Shown in pieces: positions 1,938 through 54,383 of a stretch of DNA of 64,000 nucleotides. The position numbers and the translations under genes were made by a program. The stretch lies in NCBI GenBank assembly GCA_964036295.1, contig OZ038466.1:11938001-12002000 (forward strand). The letters are read 5' to 3'. A model generated the notes under the pieces. The model ran no database searches. It worked only from the letters and a program-made list of their open reading frames with translations, and was not told the DNA's origin. Position 1 is the stretch's first letter. Every line of letters starts with the position of its first letter. This stretch comes from Plumapathes pennacea. Taxonomy: Eukaryota; Cnidaria; Anthozoa; Antipatharia; Myriopathidae.

Positions 1938-4900
1938 ATGCTGTTCCTTCGCGAGTTTACTTACGGCCAGGTTGCTATAGTTCTTATGCTCCATGTTTAC
2001 TTTATAAAAGTCATCGTATCCGAGGACTGTGAGAAGGCATTCAGACAACTTGCTGTAAAACAAGAACGTGGAAGGCCATGTGTTTATGTTGAGAAGAGTG
2101 GACTCAAATTCATAGGGTGGAAATTTGCCTTAAACCAGGGACAGCAAGCAAGAGCAGTCTTCACTCATCTGGGAGCAGACTATGGACAGTTCTTCAAGGG
2201 TCCCGTCACTCTATCAGACGCACGCTGCGAATGCAATAAGGTGCCTTGTTTGAATAAGCAGCAAATGAACAAGCTGTTGATTCTAAGTTTGGAAGGAAGT
2301 CTTCGAGACACCCCAACTATCGTCCCATCGCTCAGGAACCTTTGCTGCAGTGTGAAGATTCGCATTTTGCTCTTGGTCTTCACTTCTGGGGGAAGAATAC
2401 TCAAAAACTTGGCCTCTCCTGATATCGAATATCACATTAAGATGCAAAGCTGGTTTGCTTTGTCACAAATGCTGATGCATACTGAGTGGTGTAGGAATTA
2501 TCAAGAATTTTGTACAGAACAGACGAGAGGTATTGTCGACGGGTGTGCTGATTACAGGGAAGCCCGCGGGAAGCGTGATAAGCGAGGGATTAATCTTCTA
2601 AAATCGAAAGAGAATGCAACATGTACGGGAAACACGTGTCATGGAGGTGAGTCATAGTCGAGTTCTGACAATGTTTTTGTTAACAGCCAATTGTCCTTTA
2701 ACTTCCACTTACTCCTGCTGTAAACAAGCTTGCAATAGTGCAGACAAAACAAGAACCTGTTTCGTTCTAGTTTCGGCGCGGCAGGAAAACTAACCGCTAC
2801 AGTAATTAATGCTTTATAGTTCCAAAACACTGGACATCCGTAACTTCGTTAATTTGTATGCTTTGTAAATGCTTTGTTCTTGGCTCCCAGGAAGCAGATT
2901 TTATCAGTGCACGATAATAGAGGACGATCCCTTTAATTATAGCGCAACAATGTTGAAAGACGGAAAGGGTCATCTTATTTGACATTTTTGCGGTGACCAT
3001 GGTCGTCTTAGCTCTGCGGGCAATAAATTAGCATTTTACAGCCACTTGGAAATCGCTCATGCTGAAAATTGGTTGCCTGATGTAGACCCGGCTCACACAC
3101 AGATTTCCTACACAAATGCATTATGAGTAAGCTGTTTAGTAAAAATAAGCACACGCAACTATTTACGGTTGTGAAAAACTCGTTATTAAAATAACGACGA
3201 AAACAACTGTTGACCAAGCTAAGCTGATTTCAGCTGGCCATCTGGCAGGGTCTTAAAATAATAAATTCTTGGAGGCTGTTCTTCACGCGAGTACATAAGA
3301 GACATGTGTCAAGTGAAAATGAGTGGCGCAAGCACACAAACTGAAGGAAAGGAAGAGTAGTCATCTTGTGCTCGTGTCGATCAGCTTAGTTTTCCCCTTT
3401 ATTTACGCTTGTGCTTGCGTCTCTAGCAAAAACCAGGCTTTAACCTGCGAGACACCCTACATAAGAACTGTAACGTAGAGGAACCCAAGCACTAAAAAGC
3501 AAGTGCTTGCATATTAATTATGCACATATTATTCGCTGTTTATGTTTGTCTCTGTTCTCTAACATTAATTATACTTCCCCTGACTCTATGTATATTTTGC
3601 GCGTCCTACACGCGCGTATACACGCACCTTGTAGTAAATGCACTCAAACACCCTGAAACACGCGCGTATACACGCACCTTGTAGTAAATGCACTCAAACA
3701 CCCTGAAACATACTGCCCAGTCACTTGCCACAGTTCACCCCTACAGTGTCGCGAGAATCTGGATTTAACTCATTAAATTTTCCAAACCAAACCTGTTTCA
3801 GAGTCCAGCACAAGCGTGCTCCAACCGTCAGCTACAATTGGTGCCATCAAATCAACAGCTAAGAACAAACTCATTCCCGTCCAGCCGTCCACATCAAGAC
3901 GCAGTCCTGTGGGAACTTCAAGTGCGGCTACACCAACAAACGCTGGAAATTCCAACGGAGACTCCCAACTCCTGCCTAGGCCATCACATATTCAGATGCC
4001 AGATGTGAACCAGATGACACGTGGTACTGACTTTTTCACCGCAACTGTTTCATCCGTGGCGACAAAGTCCCTTAGAAAAGACGCGCCACTGCAATTGACA
4101 TCTATGCCATCTTTGTTAGGCTATAGTCGAAATTACTTTTACTATGATGCTACCACAGTATCAGCCACATCCTCACCAAACCATCAATCTCCTCATGAAC
4201 AAAACACCCAGGGGACGTCAGAAATCAGCTATAGACTATCCTCGACAGATTGGGTTTCATTAACACCAAGTTCAAAATTTGTGACTGAAATTGCAAAACC
4301 ATCCGCTGGCATTTTAAGCAGCTCATTGAAACTATGGTCAACGACATCAGAAGCAGAAAGAGTGTTTCGGACATCTTCTTGGTCATTCCATCGCAAAAGC
4401 TCTGTACTGAAGACAGGAATGGCTTTCTCTTCTTTAGAACTTAAGGAATATCTCTCCACTATCTCGAAGACACCAACTGGTCAAAAATTACAATTTCAGA
4501 CTTCCCTAAGTCAGGTCCCAGGAACACTAAAGTTTGCGGAGAGTCTATTACCAACTACCTCGTCGTCAAAGTCACTGAGTCTCGCCGTGCCATTGGAAAC
4601 TCCCTTTGTCTACCAAACTGGGACTTTAGTAAAGTTTGCAGCTTCACTTCTGGTACATAAAGATTGGTCGTCCAGTTTAAAGTATGACAGCGAAAACTCT
4701 CCTATTCTTCTAAGCAACACACTGCAAGTCTCAAAAGCACAGTTGACTGAAGAGCGCGGGTTTTTGACATCCCCTTGGCCACTAGAACAAAGAACAGTTC
4801 AACGTACGAGCTCCATCTCGAAAGCAAGGACGATTTCTTCTTCCTTGGGAGGGAAGTCTCTATTATCAACAGCGTCTGCCTCAAATACAACCATAACTGC

Positions 4901-7808
4901 ATCATCATCATTTGACACTTTGCCAAGCCAGATCTTATTGACCTCATATTCCTTTGGTTTTACGCATTCAGTAAGCCAGGTCCTACAAACTAAAACATCA
5001 CTAAACGTTGCAGAACTTCAGCCTTCACCTACTTTATCTATGATACATGACAAGTGGGCATCTTTTCCAGCACCAGGCAAAAAGCTTGTGACTGAAACAA
5101 CAAAGTCAGCTTCTGTTATTCGAAGCAACGCATCACAATTTAGCAGAACACTGGCTTCGTTATCGTTAGAAATCGCAGATGGGTCCTTGACATCTTGGCC
5201 ATTACGTCAAACATCAGTCCATCGTCCAAGCTCTTTACTGAAGAAAGAAATGGCTTCCTCTCCCTTAAAACGTACGAAATCTCTCTCCACTAGCTCAACG
5301 GCGTCAAACAGTCATAAATTACTATTTGAGACTTCCCTAACTCAGGTCCTAGGAACTAAGACCACACAAAAGTTTCCAAAGTCCCTATTTGCACCTACCC
5401 TGGCTTCAAAGACATCACTGAGTCTTGCGCTACCATTGGAGACTCCCTCAAACCAGAAAACTAGGACGGTAGTAAAGCCGTTTGCAGCTTCACGTATGGT
5501 ACGTAAATATTGGTCTTCCAGTCTAAAGTTTGATAGTGAAAACTCTCCTATCGTTCTAAGCAGCACACTGCAAGTCTCGAAAACACGTTCGATTGAAAAG
5601 CGAGAGTTTTTGATATCCCCTTGGCAACCAGAACAAAGAACAGTCCACCGTACGAGATACGTCTCGAAAGCAAGGACGATTTTTTCTTCCTTGGGAGGGA
5701 AGTCTCTATCATCAACAGCGTCTGCCTCAAATACAACCATAACTGCATCATCATCAATTGAAACTTTGCCAAGCCAGATCTTATTGACTTCGTATTTCCC
5801 AGGGCTTACGCATTCAGTAAGCCAGGTCCTACAAACTAAAACAACACTAAACGTTGCAGAACTTCAGTCTTCACCTACTTTATCTATGATACATGACAAG
5901 TGGGCATCTTCTTCAACACCAGGCAAAAAGCTTGTGACTGAAACAACAAAATCAGCTTCTGTTATTCGAAGCAACGCATCGCAATTTAGCAGAACCTGGT
6001 CTTCGTTACCGTTAGAAGTCGCAAATGTCTCCTCACCATGGCTACTACAGCAATCATCATTTTATCGTACGGATTCTGTCTTGAAGGCAGGATTGACTTC
6101 CTCTTTCAGTGGACCCAAGCCTCAACTCTCCGCAATATATGCTTCACAGACAAGCACCGCCGGTCTTGATTTGACAATTGAGACTTTCCAAAGCCATGTT
6201 CTACTGAAGTCTTCCTCCTTGGTGGGGCTTAAGTATTCAGCATCCACAACTTCGACTTCGAGAACATCCAATGATTCTGAATCATCGTTTGAGACTTTTC
6301 TAAGCCAAGTCGTGCAAAGTAACATCTTGGATGTGAAGATTACAAAGCAACTGCAGAACACAGTTTCGAGGACTCCACAAACTCGACACACCCTTTCTAG
6401 TGTTTTTGCTGTACGTTCTATGGAACGTGTTTCGTCCGTCAGAAGATCAGATGCAACAGCTTGGTCTTCGACGCTGTCACCATCGGTAGGGCCACTATCA
6501 CCGTCGTCACCATCAACCACAATAACGATAGTAACGAAGACGATGGCCAACACAAGCCGTTCTGATTCCCTTGCCAACTTGCGGCCATCTGTGTCAGTAA
6601 CAGGAACACCTTCTTTTGCGGTGTCATCTTTTACTTCAGGGAAGAAAGCAAACTCGACCACAGTTAATGCTGTTTCAGTAAGAACGAGACGTCCCTATAG
6701 AAGTGGCCAAGCTACGTCTTCATTAAGATTGACTCTAGGGCTACCTTTACAGACATCGCAACGTATGGCAAGTGTATTGGATCATTCCTCGACTCCGACT
6801 TGGACGGAAAGGTCCGTGGCGCGCACACAATCATTCCCGGAAAAGCACACTGGAACGCGTTTACGCTCGTCTTACGATCTCAAGTCTGCAACGTTCATTC
6901 TTCCCTCGTCGCCTTCAGTTAACTTACCGTTCTCAACGTCATCAAGTTTATACATCACTCTTCAGTCCGTGGCTCCAGTTGTTCCAACTCCTTCAATTTT
7001 ACCCAGTTTCTCTTCATCTGAACTGGCTGCAACGTCTTCAGTTCTTGGCTTCGCAAAGTATGATCAGACATATCTGGTCATACTCTCAGGAAACTGCACT
7101 ATGTTGGAGAACAAGGACGACTTTTCGAGTCAATTCAAGGCCGTCTTAACCCGGCTCATTTACGTGCGTGCCGCTGACATTTCTGTCCTTAAGATTTCCT
7201 GTGGCTCCGTTCACGTTATGTTCTCTATTAGAGAAGCAAAACGAAGAAACATTACCAACAAATTGAGGTATATAGTAGAGAGTAATCTCTTCAAATTTCA
7301 ATACAACAACATTACATTTGAAGCTCTGGAGCTGTCAGAGATTTCTGCGAAACCATCTGGAACCACTACAAGACCATCAAGGACGACACACGCCTCAAGG
7401 ACACCGGAGGCAAAACAAATTGCTTTGATCATTTTTATCTTGGTTTTGAGCTTTTTTGCCGCGTTGTCTGTACTTTTAGCTGTGATATTCTGCATTCGCT
7501 TCTGTCGCTGTTGTCAAAAACGAGAGGGGAGTCGAAAGCGAAAGAAAACGCCAGCTGAGGTGGAGCTCAAAACATTTTCCTTCTTGTACAATAATCTTTT
7601 TCGTAAAGTTGATTATTACGGAGGAAGCCGGCAGCTGCCGCGGACGCCAAGTAAAGATAAGCATGAAGAATTCGAGCTGGCGGATATCGAAAACCAGCAA
7701 GTCAGTACTGCGACTGCTCTCTTGAGTGAAACTGAGAAAGTTGCTGATGAGGAGAAGAAGTTCAGTTTTGATGATGATGATTCGTGCGCAAGCGTGCTGT
7801 TTTACTGA
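1938..7808 (+). CDS. Mucin-like type I membrane protein, SEA-like juxtamembrane domain
   Basis: Two coding exons are seen: 1938..2646 and 3802..7808. The donor is GAG|GTGAGT and the acceptor TTTCAG|AG. The split codon G/AG joins in frame, giving 1571 residues. A TAA in frame just upstream supports the ATG at 1938. The first 30 residues look like a signal peptide, followed by a cysteine-containing N-terminal region of about 200 residues that I do not recognise. Residues of about 240-1310 are a Ser/Thr-rich, presumably O-glycosylated stalk with 282-residue internal repeats. Residues of about 1320-1415 have an alternating strand/helix pattern with NCT and NIT glycosylation sites, resembling a SEA or dystroglycan-type ferredoxin-like fold (inference). 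One membrane segment (about 1441-1467, followed by CIRFCRCC) and a charged tail of about 100 residues ending SCASVLFY follow. It is probably a cell-surface adhesion or sensing protein; the ligand is unknown and orthology is not established. Confidence 0.75.
3611..3710. repeat. Perfect 50-bp tandem duplication in intron 1
   Basis: Two identical 50-bp copies, 3611-3660 and 3661-3710, each begin CGCGCGTATACACGCACC. They lie 92 bp upstream of the exon 2 acceptor of the mucin-like gene. The identity indicates a recent slippage or duplication event, or possibly an assembly effect. Confidence 0.9.
4266..6115 (+). repeat. 846-bp coding tandem repeat in mucin-like stalk
   Basis: The stalk contains two full copies and a partial third copy of a unit 846 bp (282 codons) long. 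The phrase SASVIRSNASQFSRT is encoded from about 5106 and again from about 5952, exactly 846 bp apart. TLSMIHDKWAS and GGKSL.STASASNTTITASSS also recur at that spacing. A more diverged first copy begins near 4290. The partial third copy runs from about 5952 and fades after 6115. The unit is a multiple of three, so copy number can change without a frameshift, as in mucins and adhesins. Confidence 0.85.
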
Positions 7809-9817: not shown

Positions 9818-9850
9818 ATGGCGTCGAGTTCGGCATGGCTGAAGCGTTAG
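9818..9850 (+). promoter_or_regulatory. uORF overlapping the TRAPPC14 start codon
   Basis: An ATG in good context (aagATGG) opens an 11-codon frame (MASSSAWLKR, then TAG) that ends 16 nt past the TRAPPC14 ATG at 9835, in another frame. If both ATGs are in the mRNA, TRAPPC14 would need leaky scanning, which would keep its translation low. If transcription starts between 9820 and 9834, the uORF is absent. Confidence 0.4.
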
Positions 9851-12800
9851 ACAGCAATTTTTTCATCTTTCTGCCGAATGTCTTCACTTCAGACCCTGTG
9901 GCTGACTTAGAGAAAGGAGCTCGCTTCTCGTGTTTCGTGGGAGAACTTTTGGACTTCTTCCTGATCGCGCAACAGCGCAGCAAAAACAGCGCAGATGGAG
10001 AGCTCTTGGAATGGCAGAGAAGGTTGCAACGGATTTCCACTTCTGTCAGCGTTAGCTGTGTGGATTTAGCAACAAGGAAAGAAGACGAATTTTGCTGTAA
10101 TGGCTTTATTACGTGCTGGCCTGCCACGTCATCTCGACATCAAAAAGTTGCACTGGTAGAAAAGGTAAACAACTATTTTATTGTAGTGTAATGTTAATGG
10201 AAGCGACAAGTGATGCTTTTAAAATCTTAATATATGCACAGATTAAACAGAGCAGGTGCGAGTTCTAGCGGCAGATGTTTGGTTTGTTTTGATTCTCAAA
10301 TCTCTTTCGTTCGCATCGCGCTGTTCCGCTTTAATACAACAATGACTCATGACATTTTTAAATTAACCGATGACATTTTTATTTATTCAATTTTTTAGTC
10401 TTTAATCTTCGGGGACTTCCAATATTTAAGCTTTCATCCATCTTCCTGACAAGTTTTCTTAAATAATACTTTTACCATGCAGTATTTGTTTTCCAGGCCC
10501 AGTCCGCGAGGAGGGTATTTTTTGTGAGGGGAAGAGTGGGGACGTACAGTGACTTACTGAAAACATGATTTTTTTCGGAAACCTGAAGTGTATAATAATA
10601 TTAAGCCCACACTTTTTTTTAAATCTAACCAAGTCCAAAAGGTACTGTATCCTGCAACCAAGATGTCAATTTGTCATAACTGATTAAATGATAAAGTTTC
10701 CCAATATTCTTTGTCACTGCCACTTCATTTAGTTCCGCCAAATGTATATATAACCTTCTTTGACAGGAGCTTGCCTGAGATATGCCAAAATTTATTTTAA
10801 GCACTAAAGTCTGAAATTCAAACTCTCAAAAATTTGTTTCTGTGAAACGCAAAAAATCAGCAAATATCTGAGAAATCCCCGGTTATCTTCTCCCTTAGCC
10901 TCCAAGGGCCGTGTGTGTCTACATTTGCATGGTTGGGGAACTGTAAGTTCATGATTTTTCTCACAGGTTTTTTTGGGTTAAATTCATGCCAAACAGCACA
11001 TGTCACTTATCAGGCTGAAATGGAAGGTTGGAAAATGTGCCTCGAGAATGCACACGCATAGTTGTCTAGTTGTGTATTTTTATAAATGGGAAGTTATATT
11101 GTTTACAGTCAGATGTTTTTTCCTGGGAGTTTATTTTTATGGGATCTAATTTTCATGGATTGTTGGAAAATCTGCAAAATTTGTAAAAATTTAAAAATTT
11201 CATGCCACACATTTAAACCTTTTTGGTCTGCTGGATCTGCACTGCATCCTTGTAATTTTAGTGTTTGGTGTGGGTTATAAGGATAATAAATAGAGTAAAT
11301 TTTTGCAGATTTTTTTCTCAGGGGAGTTTATTTTTATGGGATCTAATTTTTGTGGATTGTTGGAAAATCTGCAAAATTTGTAAAAATTTGAAAATTTCAT
11401 GCTGCACGGTAAACTTTTCTGTCTGCTGGATCTACACTGCATACTCTTATATTTTTAGTGTTTGGTGTGGATTATAAGGATGTATGTACATTATTCAGCA
11501 ACTTTTGTTTGCTCTTACAGCCACTGGAACCCACCATCACATCCAGGGGAGACATTATCTTCCCCCTCCATGTATCACTGGACAATTTACCAGCGTTGAC
11601 AAGGAGGATAAGGCTTTCTGTAAATGTATGGACACCCGAACTCAGCATTTCATACTTGAGCCACGGTCAAGATGAAAGTGATTTTATTGACTCCATTGTT
11701 TGTTGTGACAATGAAGGGGGTGCAGATGAGATACAAACAGCATTCAGATGTCATGGTGAGGACTTGATAATAAGCTCAATGTCATGTATTTCTGTGATAC
11801 ATTCCTTTTGGTACACTTTAGGAACAAACAACAGACAAATTGACAGGTCAACAGAACATCAACCGACCAATAACGAAGACAACCGAGCCAACTCGACCAA
11901 CCATAAGATGACAAAACGGACCAATCACATTAATGACTAGAGACATAAATACCATCATTTGACGAAACCTTTTCACTTGACTCTCCAATTTAGAGTGATG
12001 CTAAAGGATTTCTGACACGTAATAAAGTTATTCATTCATTCTCTGAAGATGACTTCCACTCTGAGAGCTGAAACGTCAGTCACCAACAACAGTCTTCCTG
12101 GAGACTATTAAAATAATAATGAAATTTTCATTCTAACCTGGATGATCACAACCACTACTGTCCACTTATTATTGGTGACCAAAACTCCATTTACACATAC
12201 ATGTAGGGATATAGCTAAGAAAAAAAAAATGTGTCAGTTTAGAATTGAACTTAGCCAGCTATCAATACAGGTACTGTAGCTGCTTTGCTCGATGCCCTTT
12301 TATTTGGACAATTGCCAATCAAATTCCAGCAAGTGATGTGGTGCTTAGTGACATCCCTGTATATTATGTCATGCTAAAAAATGGCATGGGTTTCTTGTTT
12401 TACCCATGTTGAGTCCTCTCATAGGTACTGTATTCTCAGGCACCTCTAGTTTCAGGCATCAGTACTTACTGAATGCCAATAAAGTTTGGCCTACCAGCCA
12501 TGCAGATGGATTTAGAGAATACTGCCATGCATACATGTAGCTATGTAATTCTATCAACAAGTTATCCACTGTACATGTATATGACATGTAACTTAATCTC
12601 TGCACTCAAAGTGTGCCATTTAACATTGCCTACTTTGTTGTTATATACTCCTGACCAATTCTGTTATTCTTTCTGAAATGCTGGTTTTGTCTAACATTTC
12701 ATCTACTGAGATTACGAGTGCATCACTGGTTGGTGAATAAAAAGGAAAATGTCATGTTTTGTTTTATTTTTCAGTAAATGCAAGTCTTCCTATTGTGGCT

Positions 12801-15800
12801 TCACCAAATGTACGATGTAAATATATGGCTGTTGGGGGACGACATTACCTCTGTGTTGAAGGTATTACTGTATATAAAATAGATGTGTGGAAAAAGTAAA
12901 GTATGGAATAGGGGCTGGTCTGCGGAGGGTTTATTTTAGACCAAGAGTAGTAGCTACTAATAATACAGGATGCTCCAATAATAGGGTCTTTGCAGGATTC
13001 AGTAAGTGACTAAAATTTTTTCACTTAAGGCTGTATGAGTGCCAGGATTTCAGGTCCATAGCATATATATGCATCAATTTTAGCAGCACTCAAAATAGTA
13101 AAACCTTATAACAGAGGCATGTAATAATTATACAATTTCTGATAATTCTTTCTTTAATAGTTTAGTACATATTGGGTAACCATGGACTGTAAACCTTAAA
13201 ATGTTAGTAAAACCATGTTTAACTTTGCTTATATTTAACACAGAGTGGCTGTTATTTAACACATTACTATCCGCGCCAGTTGTACTAACATTTCTGTTAA
13301 TTTATCTTTAATAGTTTAATACATGGGTAATCATGGGTAACCCCTAAAATGTTAGTAAAACCACAGTTAAATATTACTATCCACGCAGTAAACAAGTATC
13401 CTCATTATGTGGTTATTTATAAAGTATTATTAAGCTTCACTCAAAATCTCTACTTGAATTTTTACCACAGTGGTGAACAGTTTGGTAGAAACAATGAAGA
13501 TCCACCATTTGAGAGTTCATTCTGCTTTAGATGTCACACCACAGAACATAAGTTATATCAACAACACATATATTAAAAACACAGCTCAGAGGTGAGTGAT
13601 TATTAAAGGCAGCTTTATAAAAAAATATACTGCAATAATGCAACTTGCTACATGAGTGAAATTTACCACAATTATTGTTTATTGTGCAATAAAACAGCTG
13701 ATACTTACCCTGGGTACCAGAGATTATCTCGCTATTGGAAGCTCCGCCGCCCATGGTTTAGCCCATATAGCCCTACACGACCATGCAGTGCAGATCTCCA
13801 AGAGCAAGATAACCTCTGGTACCCAGGTAGCTGATACTTAGAGGGTCAACAGTACATTTTACAACTGTGTATCGTAGCTCTCATCTGAGAGTATGTCAAT
13901 ATTGACAAAATTTTTAGACAACAAATTAAAAGTAGGCAAATCTCTCTGAAACACCACAAAGAATGCTCCAATATGAAGACTGTGCCAAACTGTGATATGG
14001 GATCTTTTAATAATACCGCTGTCCCAAAAGAGTGGCAGATTAAAGTACATGATGACTGAGATGTAAACCATCTTTACTGATGGAGGTGGTAGTCTAAACC
14101 TTGAGAATGCTTGTACTGTATAAAGTAAAATGAGGGTCATTCCACAGTATTTTGGACATGGATATCAGTTTTCTAAATGTTTTGAATCAAACCTAAAATG
14201 TCCTTTAAGTTGTAGCTTGGTGTTGATAGTTTACTTTATGATGTGATTTATGGGGGTAGCATGTTGATAATGATGCATAAATTATAATCAAACATGAAAA
14301 AAGTAAAAATGGCCGTTGCGGAGAGGACAAATCAATTTATTATTTAAAAACAAATGAAAAACTGAAACCTCACAAAAGTTATCAGGACATAAACTATTAC
14401 TGATGCGGTTTACAGAACAGTTGTTACAGGATGATGTTTTACCCAGAGGCCTGTGCTAGAGACTGTCCATTTGCTAAATGTCCTCTCTGCAACATTTTGA
14501 CACCTAAAAGTTTATGTTATGGATGACCACATAATCATATTAGGTACACAGTTTGATAACTTCTAATTTATAACGGGAGGTATATTTTATTGTGTTCAGA
14601 TATTCTTCAGCTCATCACCTTAATGATTTAGGGACGTTTTCTTTTTGTTGCGGAGAGGACATTTCTGTTGCAGAGAGGACACATTGCTTAGAAGTTGATT
14701 TAAAATAAACTCATTATAAACTAAATAAATTCTAAAATAAACTCATGTTAGGTAAATTGTACTTTTCAGGGCTTTTAGTATATTTTGAAGTGTGCAGCAG
14801 TGTACTTAGACTGCATTAGTTAAAAGTTTGAGAGGAAAAGGAAGATAACATTAGTACAAGGCATTCTGTCTACTCAAACAGCATTTGGGAGAGCACTTGC
14901 TAATAAAAATCACTTCACCACATTCAAAGTTCTTGCACAGAGTGGGTGCCAAAATGTTTGATTGGCCTCAGATAGATGAAATTGATAAAGTACATGCCAC
15001 CTGTGTGTTTTATGGCCCAGTACGATGGCAGGGCAATGGCCCCTTTGAAACTCCAGATCTGGAGGAACTAATTGGAACTGTTTTTCAAGCTTTCAAGGAA
15101 GCAGAGTTGTCACTAAACTGCTACACTATGTTGCTGTTCAGTAAACATGAGATATGTACAAACATTGTACATTAACATGTACAAGTATTTACATGACTGT
15201 GTTGAAATCAACATTGTTGCAACAAGTTTGAAATGAAATGTTTTGAAGTTACTGTGATTAGGACCTTGTTATTGTTGACATTTAACAGCATAGTATGTTT
15301 CTTTAAAAGCTGTTATATATTATAGGATATGTTAATAACAAAGAATTTATGTGTACTTGACAAGAATTATTTTGGGGGGTATTTTTGCCAAGTATTCTGG
15401 ATTTTTGGTTTTACCCATAATGCTTTGTGGTCTGAGTCAGCATTAAAGTTTATGCATTTCATAAGTTTTTTCCAGAGTTTCTGGTAACATCAGTTCTTGA
15501 TGCACCAAATACAATGATTAAAACTACAATGAAGTAATAATGTCTATCCATATCAAAATCAACTTGAAAAATGTGACCACAACCCTTTTCTTTTTCAATA
15601 CCATGCTAGTCTGATCAAAGGACCTTGTTTTTGTTGACATTTATCACCATATGTTTCACTAAAAGCTGTTTTATATTCTAGAATGTTAATAAGGGTTGTT
15701 TAACATAACACACTTTGTCAAATTCAATGAGATTTTTGTGTTATTTGTTCATGGACAAAAATGTCCTCTCCGCAACGTCTTCTCCGCAACAGAGACACAT

Positions 15801-18800
15801 CAAAATATGGTCAGTTTTTCTGATGATCGAACAAATGCAGCTAATTTTTTTTGCCATATATTTAAAATATATACACCACTCTTCAATACAAAACAAAAAG
15901 AAATTGTGAATCCATCATAGAATCAGAGAACTTTTCACTTAGATTTTGTAAAACAAAAATAGCAAATTCTCTGAGTCTTCTCCGCAACAGTCACTTATCT
16001 TGCTGTAGTCTTCCATGGTTAAAACTTACAGAAAATTGCAACATAGTGGGCATAGCTATAATAAATGTCTACAAGAAAAAGGTAGAATTTTATTACTGTG
16101 ACATTTGGATTTCGAGCTGTGGCATACTGAATGTCTCTAAATGTCTTCTCCGCAACATACGAAATACTGTGGAATGACCCATGAATTAATACACATTTAA
16201 GTTACAGTATTCTATAGCAACAGGAGTTTTTAAAATATTTCTGTCTCTTATTTTCTAGGTCATCTGATTTAGATGTGTTTCCTGTTATACTGGATGAGAC
16301 AGATTCTGAAGATTCTTGCATAATGCTACGCCCCTGGGAACAAAACTCATGCATTTTTCGAATAGTTTACCATGAGAACCAAACACACCACAAGGTGCTG
16401 CACAATATATAAATATACAATAATTTAATCATTGTAATATTATTATTACAGTGGATCTCAATTTTTCAAACCAAAACTTGTTTCCCTTGGACTTGTTAAG
16501 ACACCTGTAAGTTTACCCCAGATTTCTCAACTCTTGATGATGAACCTGAACTCGAACTCTATTTTGGTTGCCCTTGAAGGTTTGAAAAATCAGGATCCAC
16601 TGTACGCACACATAATACTGTATTCTAGTTGGAGCAGGCCTTTTTATACTTTTTGTATCACTCTTGGGCATGATTCAAATGTCAAGCCATTGTGTATCTT
16701 GGCAACACAGAAATGTTTTTTGGCAGTGCGTTTTTGAGTTTGGTCACTGCAGAAAACTGAAATAACAGTAAATTGAGGCACAGTTTTCATATCTAGTTTC
16801 ACATAAATGTAATGCTTGTAAAACCCCAAATTACAATGCACTAAAGAGAACTAGATTTTGTTTGTGTCGGCATAGATAAAGATGTGTATAATATTGACTG
16901 TAAGGGCGGATGTGTGAAACCTAGATGCTGTAAAAGAATAACATTGGAAGCTTCCATTTTGAGCGCTAACCCCTCCAGCGCTCGACATTAACGGTTGCCT
17001 GTTTGCCCGGGGCAACCAAAACTTTTGGTCGGGCAGGTAAATTCTGGGCCGGGCAACTAGAAATTGCTTGAAGTCAATCTACAGTCTGAAGGGCAACCAA
17101 CCTAAAACCTTAATGTTGAGCACTGCCTTTGTAGGAGCATTACATTTTTGTCTGTGCTTGCTCTGATGAAAAGGTAGCATTCAAAACATCAGCTTCAATT
17201 TCTTTTACTGCATCTAGCTTTCACACATCAACCCTCCTCAGTGGATTCATTATACATGTCTCAAGATATGTACACCAAGTTGGCGTTTATTGCTTATTTT
17301 TGTTTATTTTTCTCACTAGTCTTTAGAAGTTGCCCTTACCACTTCTGTGACTTGGAGTGTGGATACTTTACAGTCAAGAGAACAAAAGATAACCACTCAC
17401 TACAGGTTGGTACATTGAGCACTGCTGTATTTACTTACAGTTTATGTTATAGCTAGTGGTTTTTGAGCCCATTCTGTCAGCTGTGAAGTGTTCTGACCAC
17501 TAAAACTTATTTTACGCATTTTGTTTGCTTTGCCGCAGCATGCCTGTATTCAACATCAGGAGATCCTCAGTGAGTCTACATGCCACATGTCCTTCAGTGG
17601 TCACCAGGGGAGACAGGTAAATGTTCACCTGCAAAATTCTGTCTGTACAATATTATTATGATTCAGAATATATTTTTTATTTAATATATTCCTTGAGGCT
17701 AAGTGCAATTTAGGCAAAGTTAGATTTGAGACAAGATGCTTGCCAGCGGTCTCCTCAAAATTATGCACTGCCGCACAATATTGTAATGCAGGTCCACCAT
17801 AATGTATCAGATGTAAAGCCTAAGCCACCATGGACTACTTTAAATCCTTATGCTTGGGAAATTTGAGAAACTGCAATATTTATCATCTCTTTCATGCATT
17901 ACGCTTCCCTCCACTCAGCGCTATGCTTTTGCTAAACAATACTGTGTTACATACATGCATTGCTAATGTACTGATGCAATGATAGCGAGTTGCTCAGATT
18001 GAACTGATTTACCTATTAATTACTACTCAAACTGACACCACTAAACTAGTAGTAACACATTTTTTGCTTGAATGATTAAGATAATTAATCTATCATTAAA
18101 TAAAATTTTTATATCATGAACTCAGGACTGACAGAGTTTTTTAGACTCCAGGTGAAGTACACTGTCACCAACATGGAAAGAGAGGACTGTAATGTGTTCC
18201 TGATCTGGATGCCACATGAAAACAGAGCAGCACGGAATGTGTCAACAGGGCCATTGATATGCTTACAACCATTGATCAGAATAGGGTATGAAAGGTGCAC
18301 AAAATCTGTGCCTTTCTTTTTTTGCCTCTGTCTTTTTGTGTCTGTCTTTCTGTCCATCTGTTGACTCTGTCTGCTTTCTGTCTGTCCATCTTCTGTTCAT
18401 CTTCCCACTTGTCTGTCTGTCCATCTTTTTCACTGTCCAGTTTCTGTCTTCTATTCCCTTCTTTTTTGTGCCTGTTTGTCTTTTGTCCATCTCTTTCACT
18501 GTCCTTTTTATGTGTCTGTCTGTTGGTATGCATTATTACTGTACATGCTTTGTAATATTGTTTAGTGGCAGATCTTGTGTGACAAATGACTGACAGCTGT
18601 CAATCATTTTGCAGTTATTGTGCATCAGGTTCATCACACACTGTGCATGTTGAGTTTCTGGCTGTTGAGGAAGGATTGCATGAGGTAAAAAAAAAAACCA
18701 TAGTTAAAGAGTTAAGCCCTGGCCAAACGGATTCCCAAATCAAGCCAATTCAAGCCAAGTTTGCAAAATCACTGAATTTGCATGCAGGTGGCCAAAGGGT

Positions 18801-19265
18801 ACTCCCAACTCAAGCCAAGTTGCAAGGAAATCAATTAAATGCGATAACAAAAGCACATGATACCTTGCATTAACCTTGGCTGGACTTGGCTTGGGGTGGC
18901 CAAACAATGATAATCTTGGCTTGAGTTGGCTGAAAATTTGAACTCAACCAAATTTGAGCCAACTCATACCAACTTGGTGGCCAAACAATGGCCAACTCAC
19001 AAGGTTGGCATGAGCTGATTGGAGTTGGCAATACTGTTTGGGCAGGGCTTTAAATTGTAGAATTGCAATGATTGCATACTGTGTCTAGAAAAAAAAGTTT
19101 TTTTTTTTCAGTAAAATGAGTTCTGTTTTGCAGGTTGGGAAACACATGCTTTGTAAACAGTATGCAGACATTGGCAAGGCTGACTCCTTTACAGATACAC
19201 CTGATCCAAGACATATGACCACTGTGTCACACTCATGCCAAGTTTATGTTATGCCTGCAAGATAA
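9835..19265 (+). CDS. TRAPPC14: TRAPPC14 (TRAPPII subunit, C7orf43/MAP11 orthologue)
   Basis: TRAPPC14 is a TRAPPII-specific subunit that links preciliary vesicles to the mother centriole during cilium assembly. Ten coding exons join in phase: 9835..10164, 11521..11755, 12775..12861, 13471..13591, 16259..16394, 17320..17405, 17539..17616, 18145..18294, 18615..18684, 19134..19265. They give 474 residues (human about 580; the human Pro/Ser-rich C-terminal part is missing here). Landmarks shared with the human protein as I recall it: FVGELLDFFLI near the N-terminus; DIIFPLHVSLDNLP (human EVIFPLTVSLDRLP); VGGRHYLCVEVVNS (human VAGKHLTVLKVLNS); TTHYSMPVFNIRRSSV; GDRLQVKYTVTN (human ERFTVTYTLLN); VFLIWMPHE (human VRLVWTPE); VEFLAVEEGLHEV. 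The start at 9835 is the first ATG of the long frame. It converges with LAMTOR4. Confidence 0.93.
11105..11490. repeat. 197-bp tandem duplication in TRAPPC14 intron 1
   Basis: GGGATCTAATTTT occurs at 11141 and 11338, and GTGTTTGGTGTGG at 11261 and 11458, both 197 bp apart. The second copy ends about 30 bp before the exon 2 acceptor (11519-11520). Reading frames across both copies give the same spurious peptide and are not exons. Confidence 0.85.
12040..12110. repeat. Hammerhead-like dispersed repeat tail
   Basis: CTGAAGA (12043-12049) is followed 21 nt later by GAAAC-GTC (12070-12077). The spacing and words resemble a hammerhead core (CUGANGA ... GAAAC ... GUC) of the sort carried by Penelope-like elements. 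Pairing of stem II is weak, so this is probably a decayed copy. It lies in TRAPPC14 intron 2. Confidence 0.35.
13708..13828. mobile_element. Short MITE, CCCTGGGTACCAGAG ends
   Basis: CCCTGGGTACCAGAGATTAT at the left is inverted at the right as ATAACCTCTGGTACCCAGG. A relative at 20537-20642 has CCCTGGTGCTGGAGGTCTCT and AGAGACCTCTGGCACTCAGG ends with a similar GAGCAAGA subterminal word. The element lies in TRAPPC14 intron 4. No clear target duplication was found. Confidence 0.7.
14134..16180 (+). mobile_element. 2.05-kb TIR transposon with ATGA target duplication
   Basis: Perfect 19-bp terminal inverted repeats (GGGTCATTCCACAGTATTT) bound 2047 bp, flanked on both sides by ATGA (14130-14133, 16181-16184). 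Eight copies of GTTGCGGAGA(G/A)GAC or its reverse complement lie near 14315, 14479, 14648, 14667, 15761, 15777, 15975 and 16141. They are mostly direct in the left third and inverted in the right, as expected for transposase-binding sites. One 97-codon frame is present (14885-15175). The element sits in TRAPPC14 intron 4 in the sense direction. A 4-bp duplication does not fit hAT or P (8), mariner (TA) or Harbinger (3); I cannot name the superfamily. Confidence 0.85.
14885..15175 (+). CDS. Fragmentary transposon-borne ORF, unknown family
   Basis: A 96-residue frame lies near the middle of the 14134-16180 element. Visible features are MFDWPQID, VFYGPVRWQGNGPF and an acidic amphipathic stretch ETPDLEELIGTVFQAFKEAE. 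There is no DDE triad, zinc finger or known nuclease motif. It may be the surviving tail or one exon of a larger transposon protein. It is not an exon of TRAPPC14, because the flanking exons join in phase without it. Confidence 0.35.
   Translation: MGEHLLIKITSPHSKFLHRVGAKMFDWPQIDEIDKVHATCVFYGPVRWQGNGPFETPDLEELIGTVFQAFKEAELSLNCYTMLLFSKHEICTNIVH
16890..17260. repeat. Dispersed repeat (CTAGCTTTCACACATC family), copy 1, with nested MITE
   Basis: The right part carries CTGATGA (17163), AACATCAGC, a TCTAGCTTTCACACATC word and TGGATTCATTATACATG. Copies 2 (about 35300-35660) and 3 (about 43400-43565) share these words in the same order. Inside lies another inverted repeat at about 16974-17127, with ends CTCGACATTAACGGTTGCC and AATGTTGAGCACTG. 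A partial relative of that one is at about 37330-37430 (GTGCTCAACATTAACAGTTG). The location is TRAPPC14 intron 5. Confidence 0.7.
18300..18530. repeat. Degenerate CTGTCTGTC pyrimidine tract
   Basis: An irregular array of CTGTCTGTCC- and TTTCTGTC-like words fills TRAPPC14 intron 8 just after the donor at 18295. Long frames on both strands across it are low-complexity artefacts. Confidence 0.8.
18715..19049. mobile_element. Harbinger-type MITE 2 (iterated CAAGCCAA word)
   Basis: The element is 335 bp, flanked by TTA at 18712-18714 and 19050-19052. Its ends are AGCCCTGGCCAAACGG and, inverted, AGCCCTGCCCAAACAG. The interior iterates CAAGCCAA, CCAACTC and TTGGCTTGA words in both orientations. It fills most of TRAPPC14 intron 9. 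Confidence 0.87.
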
Positions 19266-19332
19266 CAAGGCCTACACTGATTGCAGGCAATCAGAGAAGG
19301 AGATCTGCCCACAACTGTGGACGCTACTTCAA

Positions 19333-19456
19333 CGGCATGTTTAGTTCACGGAATCGACGGAAACAAAGGAACTGTAACCCTAGGGTTTGGTTAGGGTTAG
19401 GATTAATTAGGTTAAGGCTTATAGGGTTATGGTTCCGTTGGTGAATTAGACATGCC
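19333..19456. mobile_element. Small MITE with telomere-like core in TRAPPC14 3' UTR
   Basis: GGCATGTTTAGTTCAC at the left pairs with GGCATGTCTAATTCAC read from the right. The centre holds TTAGGG-like words (CCCTAGGG, GGTTAGGGTTAGG). It begins 68 bp after the TRAPPC14 stop codon. Confidence 0.55.
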
Positions 19457-19789
19457 ATACTTCTACTCTTTCCTTCTTTTCTCCCTTTCAAGGTAGTGAG
19501 ACTTGATATGTTGACCACTGTAGACATGTGGCATTTGAGGTTCAACAAAGGATAGGATGGAGAGGTGACATGATTTTCTTTAGACAGCTTACACTATGCT
19601 ATGCACTAGGGATTTTCAAAATGCTTAAAGTGCCCATAAATGTTGATTTTGCATACCTCATGGTGTACATCTTGGGTCAACATGAAAAAGGGGAACTCCG
19701 GTTGAACTGTGTTGGGTGCTTGAAAGCTTACAAACCCATGTTGTGGCCAAACAATACACAAGTTGTGTTGAATGCAAATCCATTTGTGC

Positions 19790-19802
19790 AATAAACAATA
19801 AA
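19790..19802 (+). terminator. Poly(A) signals of TRAPPC14
   Basis: Two AATAAA hexamers (19790-19795 and 19797-19802) lie about 530 bp downstream of the TRAPPC14 stop codon and are the nearest clear signals. Use is inferred. Confidence 0.55.
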
Positions 19803-21478
19803 TTTATCAGTTGACCCTATTAAGAATGTCTAAGTTGACATTTCAAGGATTATACCCTTCACCAGAGAAAAAAATGAACAGTGTAAAGGCTTAGGCTTGA
19901 AATTTCATTCTTTGTACCACAGTTGACCATAAATATTATTTATCATTGGACCAGTGGTATGCTTTTACTGTATTTATAGGCCCACTTGTGCGAACTGACT
20001 ATTATGGTCTGAGCACTTTGAATATTATTGTATTTTATGGGACTATTTCTCATGGGTGTGAGGCTACTTGATGGTGAATTTTCTGCTTTCAAATTCTAAC
20101 CAAAGATAGTTGGTATAGTGAGGAGAAGATGAAGTCTGATACACAGACAAAAGTCTACAATAATGTCAATAAGTATTACTTATACATTTTTTATAAATTA
20201 ATATTAGGGAGTTTGTATAAACTCTTGATTGAATTTTCGTAAACTTGGCTGCAAGGGGTTTTACTTTGAAACTATGCTATTTATACTGTATTTAAATTTT
20301 ACACTAAATAGTTTTACGCTCAGATACCACAGTTGTCGCTGTGTTTTGGTATGATTATGTATCAAAAATGACAGGGACTGAGTGTATCACAGCTATGGTT
20401 TAAGTTATATTTATTTTGACATGTATGAGTTTATAGGGTCAGTCATGGTGCAATATATATTATTTTGGTTATACTGGTATTATTAATTTCATGTTGCTAC
20501 CATTACTAATATCTCAGTGCAAGTGTATAAGCACATACCCTGGTGCTGGAGGTCTCTCGCCCTCGGCAGCGTTACCTCACCCCAGCCTCTTGCGGCCCAC
20601 GTAGCCTAAACTGCTGAGAGCAAGAGACCTCTGGCACTCAGGATAATAAGTACAGAGTACAGGGGAAATAACAAGCTATTTTCCTTTGTGTTTGTTTGTT
20701 TTTTGTATGTTTTATCTTATGTAACAACAAACATACATTTATCTCCAAGATAGTATGAGCAAGTGAAAAATGAACATGACTGAAGTGAGTGCCAATGGCC
20801 AGTTTTGTTCTTTTGTCCATCCCTTGGTCCGATTGTGTTCATTTTTCATTTGTGCATGATCTTTGAGAGAACTGGTGGGACTGTGAATGGTCTACCGAAA
20901 AGGAAATGAGGGGGAAAATACCTAATTTTAATGTGTGTTTTTTTTTGTTTGTGTGTGTGTGACCTTTTTGGGAGAATCTAATGCAGGACATTTTTTAGGA
21001 TTTTACTGTACTTGAAACTGTCTCATTAAACATTCCTTTACATTGTCATCAGTTTCTGGTTTTGTTTTAGGGCATGTTTTATGTTGCTTCTATGAGTGCA
21101 ACAAGGAAAATTCATAAAGTTTTGAAGGAAAAGAGAGGTTGGCCAGTTTTCTCTTGCTAGGGCTGCAGAATTTGTATGGTATGTGTTCAACTCTTACTCC
21201 CAGCTGCAGGTAAGGAGATCAGAAATATTTGAATAGTATATTTTTTTATTAGAAATAATTACTAGTCATAATTATAACAAGGTGAAGAAGGAGGGGCATG
21301 CAGTAGATGTTACAGCAAGTTGGATTTGGTGTAGTCTTATCAATGAAAAATGTGAATTACATGATGAATTACACTCTTGTGATGCCACCTATAAACACTT
21401 ATTATAACTGATTCCCGGAAAATCTGGAAAATTCAGTGATTGTACAAATTCTTATTTGTAGTTAACTAACATTTTTTT
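19803..21478. other. Convergent intergenic region between TRAPPC14 and LAMTOR4
   Basis: No exon was found on either strand. The region contains the short MITE near 20537-20642 and AT-rich sequence. The TTTATT at 21245-21250, which is AATAAA on the minus strand, is a possible LAMTOR4 poly(A) signal. The 3' ends of the two genes face each other here. Confidence 0.5.
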
Positions 21479-23689
21479 CTATTCATTCTCTTGTCTCAGT
21501 GGTCTCTTCACCACAAAAACTTTCTGATTTGAAATGGTTGCCATCAGTGCAAAGTCACCAAAGTGTACTGCAATGGAAAAGGAAACTTATGAGTTAGCCA
21601 AGATGCATTCAAAAGAGATTCTCGTGCCTGAAAAGCAAAATCCCCCAAATTTTACAAATCCTGGCTAAATCCTTCTGTTGGATAGTGTATTAAGAACTGT
21701 AAAAATCCAGAAGAAAAAACAAAAACAAAAAAACAAAAAAAACATTGGGGTAGGAAGTATTGCTAGTTTGCTCCCAAACTTGTCATACCTGACATCCTTT
21801 TGAATGTTTGCGTCCGGTCTCCAGACAGAGGTATTCTGCTTGCAGTTTGTAGCATGTTCAAGATGACAGCAGCTGTCTTCTCATCATTCTGCAGGTCGCC
21901 TGAAGACTGAAGACAAAAAGCCACATAATTTTCAAAATTGACACTAGCTGTTGACTTCTAATATTAATTTATGATATTCTATTTATACCAGGCAAATTCA
22001 ACATAGTATCTTTTTTAAATCTTCATCCCTGTTCCCAGGTTCTGCATGTTTTTGATAACAAATTTTCCTCATTGGTGGATCCCTCCCTTAGGTTCATTGT
22101 GACACATGAATCAGCTGCAACCAGGGTCTTTTTCTCTCCTCGTGTGGGGTGTGGGGTAGGCAAAAGAGCCTGGGAATGATGATGTTTTCTGCAGATGAGT
22201 TCCAATATCTGTCTCTAAAGCAAACCAGTTGTAAATTACTTTGGTTTCTGGTTGGTTGAAAGACTTTCAACCACTAAAATGCTTAGTATTTTCTTAATGG
22301 CTTTTGTGATTTTGAGGTACCATAAAATATTATTACAGTCGAACCCCGCTATTTCGAAGTCGCACGGGACACAAAAAAATGTTTGAAATAGTGGGGTTTC
22401 GAAATAGCTGATAGTAAATGACTGAAAAAAAATATCCAAGGGGGTTCGGCTTGACTTCGAAATAACAGGGTCTTCGAATTAACTGAGTTCCAAATAGCGA
22501 GGCCGGTTCGACTGTACTTTGTTTTTGGTTTTACAGATTGTAAATAAAAAATGCTCTAGAGCCATTTTCGGATGATTGTCGAAAGTAATATTGTGTAATC
22601 ATTTTGGTTTTGTGTTTGCTACACTTTCTGATGTTAAGCAATTTAACTTGATCGCGATATTGTTACACAAGAAAGTGTAGTGATGGCATGTTCTTGTTCC
22701 GCTGACTGGTTTCTTCTTCAGAGTAAAACCAAACGTGAGTCAATTTTGGCTTCTGATTGGTTGAAAGTGTTTCTTCACAGCCTCTGTAATTGGTGGTGTA
22801 CATAATACTTTGGTTTTGGTTTTCAACAGTTATATGAAAATGGCTCTATATATGGTGGTGATGGAAGCAACAATATTATTTACATCAGTTTCAAAGATGC
22901 ATGTTACACAGTTTTGAAGAACTTGGCATTTGACAGGTTGCTCAGAATGCCAAAAACAAACAAACAATCCTGTACCTTCCAGATATGTAGAGGGAACCTA
23001 TACAGTCCTGCAAAAATATCTGCATTCACACTTCATGTGTTGAGATGTTAAATAATAGTTTAATAATTTATTAACTTATATTGTGCAAATTTCATAAATA
23101 TGATCAGATGCACAAATATGAATATGATTAAAGCTTTGGACTTACAGCAAGAACGGCTCCATCAGTGTTGATGACAAGATAACCCTGTGCATCTGGTATC
23201 TTGTCGAGGCCATGTTGCAAAACAGATGCCTGGATAAAAGTATAATATAGTGAGCAACGTCAATGTTTGGTAGACCATCTGTAGCAATCATCTTTACATC
23301 TGTAAGCAATCATCCGAAGTAACGAAGGAGAATCTACAGTCAGACAAATTCATTATGAAGATGATCGCAAGAACGTGAATAAATATGGATCAGAACTGTT
23401 TGTCAACTTTCGATACAACATCAGCACGTACACGAGGTAAACGTTAAGTAAAATCAGAGAATCAAAATAGACATCGTCTTCCATAGATTGAATTAAGGTA
23501 AAAAAGTGTAATCGGCTGATCTATGACTTAGTTGTCATCTGCATCCACAGAAATTCATTCTTTAATTCCCACATACTGGTGTCGCCGATGACAACTTCTG
23601 TAAGACATACACTATCGAATTCACCGCATCAAGATACGTCTGATTATTGTATATCTGGCAGACTGAGAACGAAGTCACAAGCTTACCAT
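21479..23689 (-). CDS. LAMTOR4: LAMTOR4 (Ragulator subunit, C7orf59 orthologue)
   Basis: LAMTOR4 is a small roadblock-fold subunit of Ragulator, which anchors Rag GTPases and mTORC1 on the lysosome. Four minus-strand coding exons are read: 23687..23689 (ATG only, donor ATG|GTAAGC), 23146..23229, 21789..21906 and 21479..21567. They join in phase to 97 residues (human 99). Conserved words, human version in brackets from memory: LQHGLDKIPDAQGYLV (LTQGLERIPDQLGYLV); GAVLASSGDLQNDE (GAVLASSGDLENDE); FKRMSVHFGD (FKRLSVVFGE); QKVFVVKR (QRVFVVKR). The ATG lies in a good context (AAAATGG). The gene is head to head with a tRNA-Arg gene whose 5' end is 124 bp away, and tail to tail with TRAPPC14. Confidence 0.95.
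22336..22514. mobile_element. TA-flanked MITE (CAGTCGAACCCCGCTATTTC)
   Basis: CAGTCGAACCCCGCTATTTC at the left and its imperfect inverse GAAATAGC-type right end (CGGTTCGACTG) are flanked by TA on both sides. The interior repeats TTTCGAAATA. The TA duplication and CAGT-like ends suggest a Tc1/mariner (Tigger-like) non-autonomous element. It lies in LAMTOR4 intron 2. Confidence 0.75.
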
Positions 23690-23813: not shown

Positions 23814-23886
23814 GCCTCCGTGGCCTAATGGATAAGGCGTCGGCCTCCTAAGCCGAAGATTGCGGGTTCGATCCCCGTCGGAGGTG
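23814..23886 (+). tRNA. tRNA-Arg (anticodon CCT), copy 1
   Basis: A 73-nt gene with acceptor arms GCCTCCG/CGGAGGT and discriminator G. The box A region is TGGCCTAATGGA, the anticodon loop CTCCTAA (CCT, Arg codon AGG), and box B GGTTCGATCCC. There is no intron. A run of T starting at 23887 is the Pol III terminator. It decodes AGG. The 23690-23813 interval is shared with the LAMTOR4 start. Confidence 0.97.
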
Positions 23887-25233: not shown

Positions 25234-25306
25234 GCCTCCGTGGCCTAATGGATAAGGCGTCGGCCTCCTAAGCCGAAGATTGCGGGTTCGATCCCCGTCG
25301 GAGGTG
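25234..25306 (+). tRNA. tRNA-Arg (anticodon CCT), copy 2
   Basis: Identical over all 73 nt to the copy at 23814-23886, with its own terminator (TTTTT at 25308-25312). The flanks differ except for a few bases, so this is a dispersed or old duplicate whose body is kept identical by selection or conversion. It lies about 340 bp upstream of the TRIP12 start exon. Confidence 0.97.
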
Positions 25307-38400: not shown

Positions 38401-41400
38401 TGAGAGAGTGTTGCTGAGTTTTCCTCATTGTCATCAACTTTTATCTCTTCTGTCATTACTTTACAGTGAACTTCTGCCCAGCCTACCCAACAATGGTACG
38501 TGCATTTGACTATCAAAAGATCGTGCGCATTATCCAACTGAAGTCCGAGAGGGTCCTAATATCCTCCAGTAATACCTTAACGGCGTTTACCTTTCCCACA
38601 TATACTTTTGATTGATTGATTTTATATTTTATCTCCACACCGACATATTCTAAACTTAGTTCTCACAAGTGCTAGCATTCGATTGTAACTTCAGTTACGT
38701 TGAGAAAGCCTGGACATTTTACTTGACGTAATTTGAGAGCCATGTGAAAGTATGTCTTGCTGTACACGTCTTCTCTTTTAGAAATATTTGCAGTGGACAG
38801 TCTGCTTAGCAAAAATCGACAAACGGCAGAGCAAGGTCTCTGGCAGTGGAGGGATGACAGGGGAATCTGGCACACATACTCATGGATCGATAGTAAGATA
38901 ATCGAGACTGCTTATCAACGCAGAGAGGATGAAGTTAGTTTCACGGTCATGGGGCGTCCGTACAATATTGACTTCAACACCATGCAACAGGTAGATACTG
39001 TTATTTTTGTACCATATTTAAATATTGTTCTTCCTTTCCCGGTTTTTTTTTGTAGGAATTCATTATCTTATTTGTTGCACACCTGTGAACAATAAATAAT
39101 TTTACAGTCATACTTGTAGAACTTGGGTAATGATTCATTGTTTGAACCAATGTTCTAATTCAGCTTTCACAAATTCAAGACATCGCCAAGAGTATTTTCA
39201 AACAATCGTTGAGGACACGTTACATTCTAGTTCAAGATATCCGCTGAATGCAGCTTTAGATAACGTGGGCCTTACACATATTCACAACGAGCAGTGAGAT
39301 GTCTGGTTTGAGACTTCTATTATTTTACCTCCAGATAAACGAGGACACTGGGACTCCAAGGCCAGTGCAGCGTAGCCCAGGCACTACTGACTCAAACGAA
39401 ATTCCCCCTAAAATAAGTGCGACAAAGACCAAAACAAACAAAGAAGACGAGCGCTTAAAAGCCTTGCACGAAGACAAAGAAGTCGCGTCAGGATATTTCA
39501 GTGGGATCTTTGCGGTTCTGTACAGCATATGCGACTCAACAGTGGGTCCGGCCATCAAGCATAAGTGTATGAATGCGATTTTGAGAATGTTGTACTATTC
39601 TCCGCCTGAACTTCTTGCTGTGATTGTGAAGAAGCACCGCGTTTCAAGCCTTATAGGGGGGATGCTGAAATCCGAAGACCTTCAGATTTTGGTGAATGCC
39701 CTCCAGATGGCCGAGATCCTGATGCAAAAGTTGCCCGAAGCTTTTCACGTCTCCTTCAGACGAGAAGGAGTCATGCACAAGATTCATGACATAGCGTACG
39801 TGTGGTCTAAAGAGCACGTTTCTGCAAACACCAGCGCCACTGCCAAGGAAAGTCCTTTAGCGTCGGACGTGAAATCTCAAAGCCCAGAAAATTCGTCCAT
39901 GCAGCCGAGGCAAGTATGCATAGGCTGCGTCATGAATGTTTGAAGTTCTCTGGTTGTTCGTTGGTTGATAAAGTTCATTCAGGACTAGTTTAAGTTTTTT
40001 CTCTCGTGCTTTTGGCCAACAACCGGGCAAAGGGGCGGGAAAGGGCGGTTAATGATTCTTTTATATGAAGTATTAGTCATTTTAATCAATAGTATTTTAT
40101 TTAGCTTTATAACATTAGAAAACCCAGACTTTGCAGAAATTGAATTGAATTTAGGGGGGGGGGGGGGGGGGGGGAACGTGTAATGTTTCATTTTACATGA
40201 AGTACCGCCAAGCAGTATCTTACAATGTAATTAGAGCAGTTTCGTGGCATACCTGTAAATTAACTGGACCATCTCGTATTGGGAAGGTCATCAGAGCTAA
40301 GTGTATTGACCACGTCAGATAAAGTGTGTGTCTATGTACTGTGGGTAACAGTAGCAAGCAATCTGAGCTGGTCAGCTTAGCAGTTCTCCCAACACTAATC
40401 ATACATTTTGTTCAGCGAAGGCTGGGAGAATCAGGCTTCAGATACATGGGGACTGAAGGGTTCAATAAGCCAGGCCCTAAACTGTTACTGTGAGTGACTT
40501 TTGTTTTGTATTTCAGGAGGCTTGGCGATATTCTGAGAAGAAAACGCCGTTCAAAGAGGGCGGTCATGAAGGGCAAGATGCAGGATGCCAACAGTAACCC
40601 TAAAAAGACTCTGGAGGATGATTTTCATCCAATTGAACCTCGTGAATGTTCATTTTCAATAAGTCACGAAAGAATGTTGTCTGAGTTGACCTCCATCACG
40701 CCTGGAAGTTGGGGACCACGGACACTTGGGGGTACTCTATCAGCACCTGTCTCTCAGCGCAACAAGGTATGTAGCTTCAATACCAGAATCTTGTAAGCAC
40801 AAAAAAGTGATCAAGGCTAAACTCCTCCTTTCAATACATAGTCATCTTTATGAAGTATGGAGTATATGGAAAGTGATCTCTTGATTAAGCTCAAGCTGGT
40901 CATATTCTTCCTCTTACTGATATTGTTTTGTTTAATTGCGTTTGTTTTAACTGCGTTTGTTTTAAGAATACATCGAAGCTGCAAATCACATCGTATTTGT
41001 TATAAGTAATATGAAAGCAAGTGTTGTGGAAACAAGCCACGATAGTTTCGCTTTTTTCTTGCTGATATCTATTACATATTTACATGTAAATTCATTTACT
41101 CGCTGGTAACTAAGGATTTACGATGCATTTGATACTTCTGCCTTAGTGGAACTCAATACATTTATGTTAATAAATAAGCTTTTCCTCATATAAATCTTGC
41201 CATAGATAAGACGCACCCCAAACTTTAAAAGTGCCAGTTTTACGTGTGTTCACAGCATTTGTGGCTGTGTCGAGAATTTCTTAGACTAATTGGATTATGC
41301 CACTCTGTATCACTTCTTTTTCTTCATCTTGTGTTTGTGTTTAACGTTTGTCAATCCTTTCAGTTTGAATTAGGAGCTTGTGCAGCTAGTCCATCAAGCA

Positions 41401-44377: not shown

Positions 44378-44415
<38 letters not shown>

Positions 44416-54352: not shown

Positions 54353-54383
<31 letters not shown>

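Follow-up and report, generated by a model that had tools for sequence, protein, structure and literature searches.

TRAPPC14 and LAMTOR4 are convergent neighbours in the anthozoan Plumapathes pennacea, as they appear to be in human

Ancient gene neighbours and the human pair

Ancient metazoan microsynteny is reportedly the subject of a 2012 study by Irimia et al. According to Robert et al. 2022 (PMC8851819), 162 new microsyntenic blocks arose in the planulozoan ancestor, as compared to 17, 19 or 25 in shuffled genomes, where a block means three or more genes and not a pair. The two genes considered here have human counterparts that also go by older names, TRAPPC14 being C7orf43 (PMC8145766) and LAMTOR4 being C7orf59 (PMC6722880). 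They appear together in the gene tables of PMC3111411 and PMC4263743, which list the pair without commenting on it there. A search of the open-licence literature found no discussion of the pair, under current or old names, nor of LAMTOR4 microsynteny.

The order of genes at 7q22.1 is given in PMC4263743 as TAF6, CNPY4, MBLAC1, C7orf59, C7orf43, GAL3ST4, GPC2, STAG3. The table of PMC3111411 places C7orf59 at 99584465-99589769, C7orf43 at 99589978-99594238 and GAL3ST4 at 99594800-99604309; by these coordinates the ends of C7orf59 and C7orf43 lie 208 bp apart and the gene bounds do not overlap. As for orientation, the variant c.G249T in exon 4 of LAMTOR4 (NM_001008395) is written as G>T at chr7:99751536 in PMC6418313, and human LAMTOR4 would therefore lie on the plus strand. 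Among the 24 Sanger-confirmed novel fusions of PMC6435891, GPC2;GAL3ST4 and GAL3ST4;C7orf43 are marked as read-through. Since GAL3ST4 lies at higher coordinates, the latter would put C7orf43 on the minus strand, heading toward LAMTOR4, on the assumption that the first-named gene of a fusion is the 5' partner; read-through is, however, also the label given there to KANSL1;ARL17A, a reading that the paper's text deems improbable. The earlier note on this DNA had described the human genes as adjacent and convergent: the tables bear out the adjacency, and the LAMTOR4 variant together with the GAL3ST4-C7orf43 read-through points to convergence. The coordinates of the human genes, beside which no assembly is named, fit hg18.

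The two genes and the interval between them

The window (the whole stretch of DNA analysed, 64,000 nucleotides) contains the features listed below. Both genes are manual splice models predicted from the genomic sequence, and the poly(A) signals are candidates named by their match to the consensus.

9835..19265, plus strand: TRAPPC14, 10 coding exons, 471 amino acids
9835-10164, 11521-11755, 12775-12861, 13471-13591, 16259-16394, plus strand: TRAPPC14 exons 1-5
17320-17405, 17539-17616, 18145-18285, 18615-18684, 19134-19265, plus strand: TRAPPC14 exons 6-10
13709-13827: hairpin in TRAPPC14 intron 4
19266..21478: the 2,213 bp that separate the two stop codons, without a recognisable gene
19790..19802, plus strand: AATAAA at 19790 and at 19797, candidate poly(A) signals of TRAPPC14
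21025 (ATTAAA) and 22543 (AATAAA), plus strand: distal poly(A) candidates
20543..20637: transposon-like hairpin, 27-nt arms, 81% complementary
21245..21250, minus strand: AATAAA beginning at 21250, candidate poly(A) signal of LAMTOR4
20932 (ATTAAA) and 20415 (AATAAA), minus strand: distal poly(A) candidates
23689 down to 21479, minus strand: LAMTOR4, 4 coding exons, 97 amino acids
23689-23687, 23229-23146, 21906-21789, 21567-21479, minus strand: LAMTOR4 exons

Both models are intact, and the ends claimed in the earlier note (19265 on the plus strand for TRAPPC14, 21479 on the minus strand for LAMTOR4) are exact. GT and AG bound all nine introns of TRAPPC14, whose reading frame is unbroken, and all three introns of LAMTOR4, whose frame is open and whose first coding exon (23689-23687) consists of ATG only.

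The longer protein is assigned by its sequence to TRAPPC14, the TRAPPII accessory subunit, with both Pfam models above their cut-offs: TRAPP14_N at E 1.7e-19 (70.8 bits, cut-off 27) and TRAPP14_C at E 8.8e-14 (52.4 bits, cut-off 28). A match to Trs65 IgD3 falls under its cut-off (22.7 bits, as compared to 27.4) and fits the kinship of TRAPPC14 with TRAPPC13 and Trs65 stated in PMC10152722, where the interaction of TRAPPC14 with TRAPPII is also said to require TRAPPC9 and TRAPPC10. The PDB held no relative of the protein at E <= 1. The shorter protein is likewise assigned to LAMTOR4, the Ragulator subunit, by a strong and nearly full-length match: the best PDB entry, 5x6u_D (LAMTOR4), aligns with residues 1-93 of 97 at E 7.7e-23, and all nine PDB matches at E <= 0.001 are named LAMTOR4. 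Pfam's Robl_LC7 (Roadblock/LC7), a generic model and not a specific test for LAMTOR4, was a near miss (21.4 bits against a cut-off of 23, E 0.0002).

Paralogues elsewhere that might confuse the pairing were ruled out across the assembly (290 Mb in 24 contigs): all matches at E <= 1 fall at this locus, 3 of 3 for LAMTOR4 and 10 of 10 for TRAPPC14. Beyond this genome, 87 pattern matches to TRAPPC14 in a prokaryote contig collection and 10 to LAMTOR4 in a viral contig collection yielded no confirmed relative.

That nothing lies between the genes, as the earlier note had it, holds for what was scanned in the 2,213 bp. Thirteen open reading frames of at least 50 amino acids lie fully inside the interval, and in the 10 of them given to Pfam no domain reached the cut-off (best E 0.1, 11.8 bits as compared to 25); Rfam at its gathering scores found nothing in the interval. 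By these scans a recognisable gene between TRAPPC14 and LAMTOR4 was rejected. Elsewhere in the window Rfam recognised two tRNAs, both outside the interval. The hairpin at 20543-20637 is similar to the one at 13709-13827 in TRAPPC14 intron 4, and this likeness suggests that mobile DNA has entered the interval.

Common descent and the chromosome around the pair

The two genes are thus a conserved microsyntenic pair: in both species they lie at a single locus, adjacent and with no gene between them (by the scan of 10 of 13 open frames in P. pennacea and by the gene tables in human), and their relative orientation is the same, that of the human genes being deduced as above. I judge it very probable that the pair was inherited from the common ancestor of cnidarians and bilaterians rather than assembled independently. 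The flanking genes identified in the window are different from those in human: upstream is a Ser/Thr-rich open frame of 1,343 codons and downstream is TRIP12, neither of which is in the 7q22.1 list given in PMC4263743.

The wider chromosome gives more to go on. The pair lies at 11.95 Mb of chromosome C5, which makes up 26.55 of the 290 Mb. Five families of the 7q22.1 neighbourhood were chosen, and the count of context took in TAF6 and STAG and left out MEPCE, SRRT and glypican (which I take to be PF06859, PF04959 and PF01153, respectively). Both families counted (2 of 2) are on C5: TAF6 lies at 7.61 Mb (PDB match to TFIID subunit 6, 9.8e-16), and the STAG family is represented by a gene at 6.95 Mb (63.1 bits, cut-off 25). 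Their presence on the same chromosome places the pair in a conserved linkage-group context and favours common descent over chance. STAG is the weaker evidence of the two, because vertebrates carry several STAG genes and the result therefore fits 7q22.1 and other STAG loci equally well. A TAF6_C match on C8 was rejected as TAF6, its sole PDB match being the paralogue TAF6L.

Other searches of the genome concerned genes away from the pair. Two STING genes were found, on C12 and C6, and the nearest PDB structures to their STING domains are 8gjz and 8efm, at 177 bits for one (L018) and 198 for the other (L019). The next are 8efn (166 and 170 bits, in the same order) and 5cfl-5cfr (155-158 and 151-154 bits), and the remaining matches are at or below 113 bits among the best 60 of 77 (L018) and of 76 (L019). 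The first two structures are presumably from a coral (Stylophora), 8efn from an oyster and 5cfl-5cfr from Nematostella. Taken by itself this ranking makes an anthozoan the most probable source, an indication weakened by the oyster structure scoring higher than those of Nematostella. As markers of phylum, GFP gave no match in the genome and let-7 gave none among the 57 of 41,272 first-look candidates that were scored; no positive control gave a signal in either search, and these negatives are weak evidence.

If 20,000 genes are assumed, the chance of adjacency in a given orientation is 2.5e-5 genome-wide, and it is 3.1e-4 if both genes are taken to lie on one chromosome with an assumed 1,600 genes. 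Because its match to human is what drew attention to the pair, chance is fairly judged only over all pairs. An independent meeting of the two genes in two lineages, within a conserved chromosome, is highly improbable: scrambled order on conserved chromosomes, at about 3e-4 per oriented pair, would yield a handful of such pairs per genome on the assumed numbers, but a handful is small against the 162 new blocks of neighbours counted for the planulozoan ancestor, which makes common descent much the likelier source. Of the earlier note's proposal that order and orientation were kept since before the cnidarian-bilaterian split, what stands is the arrangement shared with human and the context on C5; the age, which is given by two end points, an anthozoan and human, is probable.

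Why the pair may have stayed together

Given common descent, I incline to passive retention, in which no rearrangement would have chanced to break the short interval between TRAPPC14 and LAMTOR4. The nearest canonical poly(A) signals of the two genes are separated by about 1.45 kb, as compared to the human gap of 208 bp, and this spacing, together with an insertion-like hairpin, is odd for a tightly constrained junction and so favours such retention. PMC8851819 also reports that 85% of the blocks new to the planulozoan ancestor disappeared in vertebrates, and the survival of this pair in human may thus hint at some constraint.

One form of constraint would be a regulatory bystander effect, in which either gene depends on a control element within or beyond its partner, or both are enclosed in an insulated domain. 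Coordinated cis-regulation is the general explanation offered in PMC5560861 for ancient animal microsynteny, and introns 1-4 of TRAPPC14 (1.36, 1.02, 0.61 and 2.67 kb by the exon coordinates) leave room for elements. The same introns, however, contain repeats, and broadly expressed genes have less need of distal control, TRAPPC14 being called ubiquitous in PMC11728246. Nothing in the present analysis points to such an effect, and I regard it as unlikely, though worth keeping in mind.

The constraint might instead reside in the 3' ends, if these overlap or regulate each other through antisense 3' untranslated regions, a shared terminator or transcriptional interference. The genes converge in both species, and the listed human gene ends are just 208 bp apart; in P. 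pennacea the distal signals, if used, would give overlapping predicted 3' ends (ATTAAA at 21025 on the plus strand with ATTAAA at 20932 or AATAAA at 20415 on the minus strand). But the nearest canonical signals stand about 1.45 kb apart (all of the signals, near and distal, being matches to a consensus), the two human genes as listed stop short of each other, and a hairpin sits inside the P. pennacea interval. The earlier note's suggestion of 3'-end overlap or shared regulation as the constraint is accordingly unproven, and the explanation by the 3' ends looks improbable. A functionally constrained convergent pair older than the split, in which the 3' end or intronic elements of one gene tune the other, is more doubtful still; were it true, the tuning would tie a vesicle-tethering subunit to a lysosomal nutrient-sensing scaffold by way of gene regulation.

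The pair is of use beyond this locus. Every pair of ancient neighbours is one more measure of how slowly local gene order decays, and those surviving in both an anthozoan and human make up a natural test set for constraint against luck. A convergent pair is useful in that it rules out the explanation usually given, a two-way promoter shared by both genes.

TRAPPC14-LAMTOR4 is a new example of the well-known ancient microsynteny of animals. As with the blocks described in PMC8851819, neighbours have been retained across the cnidarian-bilaterian split, but those blocks need three or more genes and here there are two. The closest comparison is the human segment MBLAC1-LAMTOR4-TRAPPC14-GAL3ST4, in which LAMTOR4 and TRAPPC14 are adjacent and convergent as in P. 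pennacea, whereas the outer neighbours differ and the human gene ends lie much closer together than the nearest predicted 3' ends of the anthozoan genes.

Age of TRAPPC14

One passage of a review describes TRAPPC14 as a subunit found in vertebrates (PMC10152722). A clear copy (9835-19265) is present here in a probable anthozoan, which suggests that the subunit is older than vertebrates.

Genes near the pair and elsewhere in the genome

The surroundings of TRAPPC14 and LAMTOR4 contain these features:

23814-23886, plus strand: tRNA-Arg (anticodon CCT), upstream of LAMTOR4
25234-25306, plus strand: tRNA-Arg (anticodon CCT), second copy
38748-57092, plus strand: TRIP12 E3 ligase gene, partial model, with a WWE exon, a TRIP12-matching exon and a HECT exon
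3777-7805: Ser/Thr-rich open frame, 1,343 codons from stop to stop

The first tRNA gene lies head-to-head with LAMTOR4, 124 bp upstream of its start codon. At the TRIP12 locus, one exon encodes WWE, one has TRIP12 as its sole PDB match, and the HECT exon has TRIP12 as its nearest relative. The Ser/Thr-rich frame, in which internal repeats are visible by eye, gave no Pfam match at E <= 0.01; a transmembrane segment and a cytoplasmic tail are likely, and on these features, read by eye, its product is a putative mucin-like membrane protein. Two STING genes lie on other contigs, L018 on C12 and L019 on C6, each carrying the ligand-binding domain uninterrupted in a single open frame (387 and 362 codons, respectively).

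Repeats within TRAPPC14 introns

About 10745-10876, intron 1: dispersed repeat with matches elsewhere in the genome
11116-11210 and 11313-11407, intron 1: 95-nt repeat present twice
About 18708-19053, intron 9: MITE-like element, from by-eye reading and an inner inverted repeat

The dispersed repeat recurs at 76-84% identity in at least 37 further genomic places, a lower bound, since scoring covered 40 of 138 candidates. The 95-nt copies are 92% identical and spaced 197 bp apart. Besides its inner inverted repeat, the intron 9 element (approximately 350 bp) has, by eye, similar inverted ends with TTAA adjoining both sides, and in these inverted ends beside TTAA it resembles a piggyBac-type MITE.
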